Assembly (NCBI RefSeq): GCF_000328685.1
Contig: NC_019974.1
Span: 2,533,001-2,597,000 of the forward strand
Reading direction: 5' to 3'
Source of the DNA: Natronococcus occultus SP4
GTDB taxonomy: Archaea > Halobacteriota > Halobacteria > Halobacteriales > Natrialbaceae
DNA: 64,000 nucleotides
Of this stretch, positions 16,307-20,228 are shown piece after piece. A model generated the notes under the pieces. The model was not told the DNA's origin. It saw only the letters and a program-made list of their open reading frames with translations, and ran no database searches. Made by a program: the position numbers and the translations under genes. The stretch's first letter is position 1. Every line of letters starts with the position of its first letter.

Positions 16307-17239
16307 TGCTCTATTGAAAACGGACGACAGCGGCGAGGCTAGGCTGTGCTTGGTAACAAGCTGAAGCCGAGGAAAGGAGATTATGGCGATCAACCTCCTC
16401 GACTTCGCTCAAAACTGTCGACGCCTGGCTAAACAAGCGTTTGGGTCACACGCGGGGAAACCTGCCTCCGGCGGGCTTCCCCGCTGGGTCCATGTCGTCG
16501 TGCACTGCTTACGAGTCGAAGAAGGCTGGACGTTTCCGGAAGTCATCGATCGGCTCCGCCTCATGCCAGGGATCTGCGAGCTACTGGATTTGTTACCGGA
16601 AACTCTGCCCGATCCAACGACGTTCTGGCATTCGTTCGATCGATACGCGATGCGCGTCTGGCGGGCGTTGCTGCGCGTCTCCGCGCAGCAACACCCGAAT
16701 TCTGGGCGCGTCGCTCTCGACAGCACGTTCTTCGAACGGGGACACGCCTCACACTACTACCTCAAACGCACCGATCGTACGATCCAGACGCTCAAAGTGA
16801 CGACATTGACGGATACGGAGTCGTTGGCAGTGCTCGACGTCCACTGTTCGGCCAAATGGCGTCACGACACGATACTTGGCCGGAAGCTTGTCCGTCGAAA
16901 TGCGGACGAGCTGGTCTCTGTGGCGGCTGATAAGGCGTTTCATAATTGGCCGATACGCTACGAATACATGGCTGAGAGCATCGAGCCACTTCTCTTGCGA
17001 AGTGGCTCGACGCTCGGCCCAGTTCTTCACAATACGTTGACCAGATCGAATGGATACACGCAACGGTGGATGGCTGAAACGTCGTACTCCTCGACAAAGC
17101 GGTCGTTGGGGTCTGAGCTACGCTCACTCGGTTGGTACAGACAGTTCCGTGAGATCGTCCTCATGTTTGCTGTTCACAACATCGAAAATCTCAGTGAAAC
17201 GCTCTAATTCCAGTGCCGTATGGCGTTTTCAATAGAGCA
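16307..17239 (+). mobile_element. IS5-family insertion sequence
   Basis: A 933-bp element bounded by a perfect 16-bp terminal inverted repeat: TGCTCTATTGAAAACG at 16307-16322 and its complement CGTTTTCAATAGAGCA at 17224-17239. It contains one complete transposase gene. The bases outside the two ends do not form a target duplication. The right end touches the first base of the ISH8-type element at 17240. Confidence 0.9.
16383..17207 (+). CDS. IS5-family transposase
   Basis: A 274-residue DDE transposase that fills the IS5-type element. The N-terminus (LLDFAQNCRRLAKQAF...GGLPRWVHVVVHCLRVEEG) and the block RVSAQQHPNSGRVALDSTFF carry the first catalytic Asp (VALDS). VSVAADKAF holds the second Asp. 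WMAETSYSSTKRSLG, near residue 236, holds the catalytic Glu with the family's S-x-x-KR signature. The C-terminus ends EIVLMFAVHNIENL, as in full-length haloarchaeal relatives. No frameshift or internal stop is seen, so the element may still be active. Confidence 0.93.
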   Translation: MAINLLDFAQNCRRLAKQAFGSHAGKPASGGLPRWVHVVVHCLRVEEGWTFPEVIDRLRLMPGICELLDLLPETLPDPTTFWHSFDRYAMRVWRALLRVSAQQHPNSGRVALDSTFFERGHASHYYLKRTDRTIQTLKVTTLTDTESLAVLDVHCSAKWRHDTILGRKLVRRNADELVSVAADKAFHNWPIRYEYMAESIEPLLLRSGSTLGPVLHNTLTRSNGYTQRWMAETSYSSTKRSLGSELRSLGWYRQFREIVLMFAVHNIENLSETL

Positions 17240-18628
17240 CTTTAGCTAAGCCTCAGCTGCCGGTTTGATGGCGGTAGCGAGTTGTTCCTGGAGAACCGGC
17301 CGTTGTTTGTGGATCTTCTGTGCGTCGGCGATCAGCCGATCAAGCAGTGGCGGTGGAGAATACCCAAGGTAGCCACTCAACCGGTAGAGAATGAGCTGGG
17401 CGTGCGACCGGAAGGTCGCCGCCCAGCGTTCCGGCGGAAACACGAGATCATCATCTGCGTGTTCGATGACCAGACTAAGCAACTCACGGCTCACAACCAA
17501 GGACAACAGCGCTGCGTACAGCAGAATCTCTACGACGTGCTTCTTCGTTGTATCGAACTCATCCAGTCTGTACTGCGTCTTCAGCTCCCGAAACAGCAGT
17601 TCTACTTCCCACCGGCACCGGTAGATCGTCGCTAGGTCCTCCGGCAGGAACTCTTCGCGCGAGAGATTCGTGATGTACAAATGGTAGTCGTCGGCGTCCT
17701 CGTTGCGGACGCCGACGACGCGGAACCGTTTCGTATCACGTGACTGCGTGCCCGCGTACTCTCTCCGGTCAAACTCGATCTCAACTTCGACGTCAATGTA
17801 CTTGCGACAGAGATCGTCCACGACGTCGAAAATTTTCTTCCCCTCCAAGGGAATGGCGCGGCCGCGCCATTCCCGAAATTCGTCGGTTACAACCGGGTTA
17901 GAGCTGCGTTTCAGTCGACTCACGAAGTAGCCGTCGTTCTCGTCGATCAACGCGAACCGCCGGTACTTGAAATAGGTCAGATCGAAGATCGCTAGCCGAC
18001 CTTCGAGCCACGATCCTGTCTCGAACTGCGTGCTGTCGTGTCTTTTCTCATCTGTGACGCTGAACCGGTCGATCGTCTGCTCAGTGACGTTGTGGAGCAG
18101 GTGGAGCCGTGCTTCAGCCTGCTCCTCACGGCGACCTTCGTACTCCTCAGAAAGCAACTCATGGAGCCGGAGAACCGTTCCATCTGCGATCATCACGTCT
18201 CTGAATCGGTTGAACTCCTCTGAGACGGTGTGAGGGACAGCAACCTCGTCGAGCCCGTACTCGACGAGGTCGCGGAGGTACTCTGTGAGAGTCGGCGTCA
18301 ATCGCTGATAGAAGCCTCCTGCGGACAATGTCTTGTCTGCAGTCGAGTTGTAGCTCCGTCTGAAGCTGGCGAGCGTTCGGCTTCGCCGGCGGCGCAAGCC
18401 GAACGCAAATGACCAGACGAGCGGTGGAATCTGCAGCTTCCGATCGCGCTCGACCACGCCGACGGCATCGGCGTGGTCTTCGAGCGCTTCAGATGGAAGG
18501 AAGTTAGTGAGATGGCGTTCCACTTCCTGTGAGGAGGGGTTAGAGTGCACATCTTCCGCCTCCTCATTCCTTCCGAAAAGTAACTCCGATAAGCCGCCGC
18601 TGTCGTGCGGTTTTGCGCCTAACTAAAG
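17240..18628 (-). mobile_element. ISH8-type (IS4 family) insertion sequence
   Basis: A 1389-bp element. Its ends form an imperfect inverted repeat: CTTTAGCTAAGC from 17240 and, reading inward from 18628 on the other strand, CTTTAGTTAGGC (10 of 12 match). The size is close to that of ISH8-group elements. It abuts the IS5-type element without a single base between them. The base sequence right of 18628 (ACGGATGC) is not repeated to the left of either element, so no target duplication remains. Confidence 0.82.
17246..18550 (-). CDS. IS4-family transposase, ISH8 group
   Basis: A 434-residue transposase starting at GTG 18550. DDE-type blocks are VMIADGTVLRL (first Asp), LAIFDLTYFKYRRFALID, and the IS4 'YREK'-type signature YRCRWEVELLFRELKTQY near residues 305-322 with the catalytic Glu. 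The frame is uninterrupted and the stop lies 6 nt inside the left element end. In-frame codons before the GTG (reading ...LLFGRNEEAED) look protein-like but have no start codon before a TAG. The true N-terminus could therefore have been damaged, or the GTG is correct. Confidence 0.9.
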   Translation of the reverse strand: MHSNPSSQEVERHLTNFLPSEALEDHADAVGVVERDRKLQIPPLVWSFAFGLRRRRSRTLASFRRSYNSTADKTLSAGGFYQRLTPTLTEYLRDLVEYGLDEVAVPHTVSEEFNRFRDVMIADGTVLRLHELLSEEYEGRREEQAEARLHLLHNVTEQTIDRFSVTDEKRHDSTQFETGSWLEGRLAIFDLTYFKYRRFALIDENDGYFVSRLKRSSNPVVTDEFREWRGRAIPLEGKKIFDVVDDLCRKYIDVEVEIEFDRREYAGTQSRDTKRFRVVGVRNEDADDYHLYITNLSREEFLPEDLATIYRCRWEVELLFRELKTQYRLDEFDTTKKHVVEILLYAALLSLVVSRELLSLVIEHADDDLVFPPERWAATFRSHAQLILYRLSGYLGYSPPPLLDRLIADAQKIHKQRPVLQEQLATAIKPAAEA

Positions 18629-18944
18629 ACGGATGCTTCCATCAGCTACTGGAGATGTTGAGAGGGCCGTGCTGAATCTACAGCGGGGATGTGGCCCCCT
18701 CCGGAAGTCGATTGCCACAGGACAGGAGCCGTTCAGTACAGCGCGTCAATATGTAAACGCGGTTGGCTTGTGCAACCCCTCCAATTATAGACGAGATTCA
18801 ATCGGCGGAAACTGCTCGCATCGGGAACGGCTCTTGGAGTGGCTGGACTGTTTGGGTCACTGTCAACGGCCGCGGACGAACACGGCGAAGAAGCGGAGAC
18901 GCAGGACGTTGAAGTTGAGTACGAGTATCGGCTCGAAGGGGAGG

Positions 18945-18992
18945 GAGATGATGAACAGCTCGAAGAACGACTCGAACTATCCTCGGGTGAGT
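18945..18992 (+). repeat. 48-bp direct repeat, copy 1
   Basis: Begins GAGATGATGAACAGCTCGAA and encodes GDDEQLEERLELSSGE. It matches the second copy at 19317-19364 with two base differences, and marks the first tandem unit of the repeat protein. Confidence 0.85.
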
Positions 18993-19316
18993 ACCATTAC
19001 AGCGGGGACGAGGATGAGCCGCAGAACTGCTACGTTACGTTCAGTGCCGAAAACGTGAGCGACGATGAAATCAGGGTTGACTTTTGGGCTACCGTGGATG
19101 ACCATAGTACGTGGGACACGCAGAGCCTACTCGACCCGGGCGAGTCCGGCGGTGCAAGGCTGGAGTCACTCAATCCCGATAACTGTCCCACCGATCCGGA
19201 TCAGGTTACGATCACTGCGCGATCCCCGTACATCGGGGACCCACACGAACCTCCCGAAGACGACGAAGGCGAAGACGGGGACGTTGAGTTCGAATATACG
19301 TATACAGTTGAGCAAG

Positions 19317-19364
19317 GAGATGACGAACAGCTCGAAGAACGACTCGAACTGTCCTCGGGTGAGT
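19317..19364 (+). repeat. 48-bp direct repeat, copy 2
   Basis: Begins GAGATGACGAACAGCTCGAA and encodes the same peptide as copy 1. The low divergence points to a recent internal duplication or to gene conversion. Confidence 0.85.
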
Positions 19365-20228
19365 TCGACTCTTGCACCGTCGAAGCGGATGTTGAAAACC
19401 TAAGTGATGATGAAGGAATCAGCTTCTACCGCTATGCTGTCGTAGATGGGAACCCGACGCACGAAAGTCAAACTTCACTTGATCCCGGTGAATCAGACTC
19501 CATAAGTATGGAGATAAATCAGGGTGTAGCGGATGAGTGTCCCGATGATCCGGATCAAGCAACGGTTCATACATGGGTGGCCAGCATCGGAGAATCAGAC
19601 GAACCCCCCGAGGACGACGAGGAGCCCGAAGACGAAGAGGAAGCTGACGACGATGAACCCAAGGACAAAGACGATCTCGACCTCTCGGTGTCCGCACCCG
19701 ATTCGATCCCGTACGAAGAAACGGCCGACCCGAGCGAGGACGCCGCCGACTTCTGCATCACGGTGACGAACCGCGGCGACGAAACGGTCTCGGTCGACGG
19801 TCAGTTCGAAATCGGCCCCATCGACGAACCGCTCCCGCTCGATCTAGAACCCGGCGAGACTGAGACCACCTATTACGGCGTCATGAGTCGAGACCTCGGT
19901 CCCGGCGATCACGAGTGGACGGTCACCGCGAACGGCGAAACCGAAACCGAAACCGGAACGCTAACCGTGACCGACGACGAGGAGTGCTGATCGGCTTCAG
20001 ACGCCGAATAGCGGGGATGGTATAAAACAAACGAACCCCGTGCTGAACGCATCTTCTGTCTTCTCTATCCAGCAGGATTTTCCTGGCAGCTATCGGCGGA
20101 CTCGATTGCTGCTCTGATACCTACATGGCCTGTTCCTAACACAAGTTTCAGATGAAATTCTGGATAACGAAACCACGTTGCTATCTACTGGGGAATTTGA
20201 ACGGGTTGTACGGAGAGAGTTCGCCAGC

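Follow-up and report, generated by a model that had tools for sequence, protein, structure and literature searches.

Gene disruption in haloarchaea has been described in PMC4500146, where the causes named include small indels and larger deletions that truncate gene ends. The gene reported here resembles the disrupted genes of that account in having lost its start through a 5′ lesion, with the remainder of the frame preserved, and in having insertion sequences nearby. It differs from them in the very small size of the lesion (net 26 nt), which is confined to the start codon and the upstream DNA next to it and leaves a frame that otherwise looks complete. In Haloferax volcanii, 72% of the protein-coding transcripts were reported to be leaderless, with about 80% of these beginning exactly at the start codon (PMC4983044). 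Concerning the codons used, AUG, GUG and UUG are described as all being active on leadered haloarchaeal mRNAs (PMC3986360), and the later H. volcanii study gives 118 natural leaderless GUG mRNAs (PMC4983044).

The window, a stretch of 64,000 nt (G000:C1:2533001-2597000), belongs to a 4.0-Mb contig of a 4.3-Mb, three-contig Natronococcus genome. On its forward strand, translation revealed a stop-free frame at 18791-19990, which comprises 399 codons from ACG 18791 to the stop codon at 19988-19990 and whose N-terminus reads TRFNRRKLLASGTALGVAGLFGSLSTAA (opening residues TRFNRRKLLASGTALGVAGL). A Tat signal is recognised by a pair of arginines close to the N-terminus and a hydrophobic segment behind them. 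By eye and with a simple pattern, we found such a signal, NRRKLLASGTALGVAGLFGSLSTAA, encoded at 18791-18874 (forward strand) without any start codon in front of it. Instead, an in-frame TAG (18788-18790) directly precedes ACG 18791, and the first ATG, GTG or TTG that follows in the frame is GTG 18839-18841, which corresponds to V17, lies past the twin arginines and is located inside the former signal peptide; the earliest in-frame ATG is at 19508. The original prediction had read the same Tat signal back from 18839 in a frame open to 19990, and had pointed out that a start at this GTG loses the twin arginines. The translation and two congeners that share the signal bear out the former, and the in-frame scan from the TAG confirms the latter. 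This is relevant for annotation, as gene calling from the earliest ATG, GTG or TTG places the start at GTG 18839 and returns an 'intact' cytoplasmic protein; the program-made list of open reading frames for the window does exactly this.

To place the frame among its relatives, we compared it with the genus. A protein search returned some match in all nine Natronococcus genomes, most of them limited to the C-terminal part, and matches starting at residue 2 came from two relatives, Natronococcus sp. A-GB1 (G005:C12) and N. amylolyticus DSM 10524 (G001:C33). When 18680-18900 was used as a DNA query, three of the nine genomes gave a match, the window's own among them, and the N. amylolyticus match began at the coding part. 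In scans of named genomes, no relative was present among 241 candidate stretches with the whole protein, and the N-terminal alignment recovered solely the two known congeners (2 of 237); in a scan of viral contigs, there was no relative among 30 candidates. The Tat signal is conserved in both congeners, with 78% and 80% identity over the first 40 codons, which argues against a chance frame. The A-GB1 homologue (655 aa) shares with the window gene the Tat signal, the C-terminal domain, about 145 bp of upstream and about 160 bp of downstream DNA, whereas it differs in having a start codon and an extra PQQ-type beta-propeller (PF13360) after the signal. The N. amylolyticus homologue likewise carries the Tat signal and the C-terminal domain, and differs in possessing a start codon and in being shorter (317 aa with its start).

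In A-GB1 the region reads ...CCTCCAATT, 27 nt and GTG CCG AGA TTC AAC CGG CGG, and in N. amylolyticus ...CATCCATTT, 27 nt and ATG AGG ACA TTC AAC CGC CGA, while the window has ...CCTCCAATT, ATAG and ACG AGA TTC AAT CGG CGG. At the junction (18787-18790, forward strand), ATAG hence takes the place of a start codon and the 27 nt upstream of it in both congeners, which leaves the window with a net 26 nt less than either of them. The codon slot at position −5 from the first arginine, in which A-GB1 starts with GTG and N. amylolyticus with ATG, is occupied by TAG in the window. The original prediction had suggested looking for ATGACG in homologues: neither has it (GTGCCG in A-GB1, ATGAGG in N. amylolyticus), nor does either begin at the downstream GTG without a Tat signal, since both start in the slot of the TAG and carry the full signal. 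Upstream, the window and A-GB1 can be aligned from 18641 to the indel (18641-18786, forward strand), and 18641-18888 is 79% identical, gap included; the upstream alignment with N. amylolyticus is weak and its anchor short. How the shortage is distributed depends on the alignment. With MAFFT, the window received a single gap of 26 nt; in pairwise alignments, this was split into three gaps against A-GB1 and became a 27-nt gap plus one extra A, the base singled out by the original prediction, against N. amylolyticus. Ungapped models against A-GB1 were equally cheap for deletions of 26, 27 and 28 nt with fillers of 0–2 nt (eight best models): substitutions accompany the 26-nt deletion, one extra base (this A included) the 27-nt deletion and two extra bases the 28-nt deletion.

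Two side observations concern the organisation of the A-GB1 homologue. The unit shared between window 18641-20150 and A-GB1 (L056 5470-7773) comprises the gene and its flanks, beyond which the neighbours differ; those on the two sides in A-GB1 are frames for an ArsA-like ATPase and a DNA-ligase-like protein (named from sequence). It looks as if the unit had moved or its neighbourhood had been rearranged. Moreover, A-GB1 carries the PQQ-type beta-propeller between the Tat signal and the repeat/C-terminal part (L056 5644-7611), and it is absent from the window gene and from N. amylolyticus; this presence or absence is domain shuffling within one family.

We then tabulated start codons across the family, using 47 locus rows in which the open frame was read back and the Tat arginines were sought. 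Set aside were ten rows that lacked a convincing Tat motif (L005, L019, L026, L027, L028, L029, L048, L050, L051 and L052), three duplicates (L004, L014 and L018) and the window's own row; matches without a locus, as well as L022, L023, L025 and L031, whose genes were already counted, were kept out of the table. All 33 other distinct Tat-bearing relatives, many of which are connected to the window gene through the C-terminal domain only, have a start codon four to five codons before the arginines (31 ATG, 2 GTG), including L030, L047 and L053, in which the Tat motif lies beyond the first 120 residues of the frame and an ATG is present at −4 or −5. Among the genes tabulated, the window gene alone lacks such a start codon. 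Separately, three C-terminal-domain relatives (L011, L013 and L024, in G006, G004 and G005:C7, respectively) contain one internal stop codon each, and judging from these sequences other family members may be decaying too.

Synonymous divergence (dS) between the window and A-GB1 was 0.18, compared to 0.46 and 0.37 for distances to N. amylolyticus, which is therefore the outgroup. As this outgroup shares the longer form with A-GB1, the loss of the start appears to be derived in the window lineage, the ancestral state being read from these two comparison sequences. For counts per branch, we used 132 unambiguous codons, namely 30 N-terminal codons and the C-terminal domain, and excluded the middle of the gene because the correspondence of repeats is uncertain there. 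Two non-silent and ten silent changes fell on the window branch (10/12 silent), four and four on the A-GB1 branch, and 20 and 22 on the N. amylolyticus branch. Assuming a neutral non-silent share of 0.72, two or fewer non-silent changes out of 12 have a probability of about 1e-4. These 132 codons thus gave no sign of relaxed constraint after the loss on the window branch (2 non-silent to 10 silent), and the bias towards silent changes implies that the frame was constrained for most of its separate history. A recent loss of the start and a gene that is still in use would fit the stop-free frame and the silent bias equally well. The unrelaxed constraint lowers the probability that the gene has long been dead, but does not speak against a gene that died recently.

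Taken together, these comparisons make it probable that a small, lineage-specific deletion or complex indel removed the start codon and the adjoining upstream DNA, and that the window gene is a recent start-loss pseudogene. Ancestrally, it would have been a normal Natronococcus gene, whose product was an acidic protein of several domains, exported via Tat and either secreted or located at the surface. A deletion or complex indel of net 26 nt at about 18786-18791 would then have taken the start codon and the bases just 5′ of it. In a leaderless gene, the TATA region or core promoter would sit within the roughly 27 nt ahead of the start codon. Because transcription and translation start at the same position in most haloarchaeal mRNAs, this event very likely took with it the transcription start and a portion of the core promoter. 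Initiation at the ancestral site would be impossible, because the slot now reads TAG, and any remaining product would be at most weak and cytoplasmic, made from GTG 18839 or a later start without the twin arginines. An exported product is unlikely, as start codon, transcription start and core promoter sequence would have gone together. In this respect the original prediction, which had offered fresh inactivation as one possibility, is supported, except for the route: rather than a lone A, the loss would comprise about 26–30 nt, including the start codon and its upstream neighbour. Such a pseudogene, belonging to a variable family of exported proteins, would be a case of ordinary decay and would call for no new mode of initiation.

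Several other explanations have to be weighed against a recent start-loss pseudogene. The original prediction had attributed the lesion to one A inserted into ATG, and indeed AT(A)G ACG reads as a plausible start once the A is removed; a 27-nt deletion with a one-base filler is also among the equally cheap models, and the pairwise alignment with N. amylolyticus picks it. As the sole event, however, a lone A is refuted by the net 26 nt that are missing at the same place relative to both congeners, which require at least one larger event, so that we find this reading barely credible; a single inserted A could still be a second, minor component beside the larger event. The possibility of a sequencing error, which had likewise been raised, fares little better. 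Even though the junction is known from one assembled strain of the species, a one-base error cannot account for 26 missing bases, the extra A lies outside any homopolymer run (AATTATAGACG), the junction occurs just once in the genome, and the contig measures 4.0 Mb in a three-contig assembly. A sequence or assembly error at 18787-18790 is consequently very unlikely.

The same low probability applies to a non-standard start, by which the gene would still be expressed from ACG 18791 with its Tat signal restored. ACG differs from ATG by one base, the frame contains no stop and ten of the 12 changes on its branch are silent, all of which would suit a gene in use. Yet leaderless initiation strictly needs AUG according to PMC3986360, PMC8211752 limits the demonstrated non-canonical events of archaea to elongation and termination, the 33 relatives all manage without such a start, and the upstream DNA adjoining the start is missing as well. 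We would put natural non-canonical initiation in the full sense, with a Tat-bearing product made from ACG 18791 behind the TAG and kept under selection after the loss of the start, at a slightly lower probability still; the finding of a Tat-bearing product would make this locus a test of natural ACG initiation by archaeal ribosomes. Somewhat less improbable, albeit unlikely, is a cytoplasmic product whose translation begins at GTG 18839 or at an in-frame start further on. This GTG is in frame, and transcription entering from the upstream insertion sequences is conceivable, but the codon sits within the former signal peptide, and the start codon precedes the arginines in both close homologues as well as in the 31 other relatives. 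Two further routes were considered and rejected, i.e. an upstream start at GTG 18770 with readthrough of the TAG and a frameshift entry from an overlapping frame beginning at ATG 18633; the frames exist in both cases, without support for their use, and the relatives have no need of either.

We also characterised the protein that the frame at 18791-19990 would encode. Translation, a repeat search and structure modelling described it as acidic and beta-rich, with internal repeats (110 bases at 78% between two parts of the gene) and a C-terminal beta-sandwich domain. At an E-value of 1e-6, 26 of 125 genomes of the family gave some match to the query. Searches of Pfam returned no family at E-values up to 0.01 (one insignificant match at 0.24), and NCBIfam none at 0.1. 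The model computed from the single sequence was poor (mean pLDDT 48.8), and a 20-row model was confident for the C-terminal beta-sandwich, with block-mean pLDDT values of 79–95 from residue 301, and nowhere else. With Foldseek, TM-scores did not exceed 0.34 throughout the best 50 of 1784 matches (E-values up to 10), leaving no informative structural relative among them. An acidic, exported, modular surface protein is a sensible predicted label.

Upstream of the gene, the window contains two insertion sequences. The nearer one (17240-18635, reverse strand; left end approximate) encodes a DDE transposase (frame 17246-18550) and was delimited through PF01609, plasmid matches and its end sequences; its right end, at about 18635, lies about 155 bp before the gene. 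Three plasmid records match the insertion-sequence end only, with 18600-18635 in two haloarchaeal records and 18600-18634 in the third (97%). The second one (16307-17239, forward strand; DDE transposase frame 16383-17207) was recognised by PF01609 and by perfect 16-nt terminal inverted repeats at 16307-16322 and 17224-17239. The two elements abut (window 17224-17260), as the right repeat of one ends at 17239 and the left end of the other, apparently shortened, begins there. In A-GB1, DNA resembling 18641-18786 precedes the gene without either insertion sequence, so these elements are not the source of the start-adjacent segment; nearness, and nothing else, links them to the lesion.

Between the nearer insertion sequence and the gene, we noticed a short element at 18636-18677 (CTTCCATCAGCTA...ATGTTG...GCCGTGCTGAAT), which recurs at 2874824-2874865 and 3606248-3606295 of the same contig (G000:C1). 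Its core pattern occurred at eight places in five of the nine Natronococcus genomes, compared to none for a reversed control pattern. By eye, no transposase was evident beside it in the frames of six loci. Its copies apparently lie between unrelated genes, and the element may represent the end of an insertion sequence, or else a small dispersed repeat.
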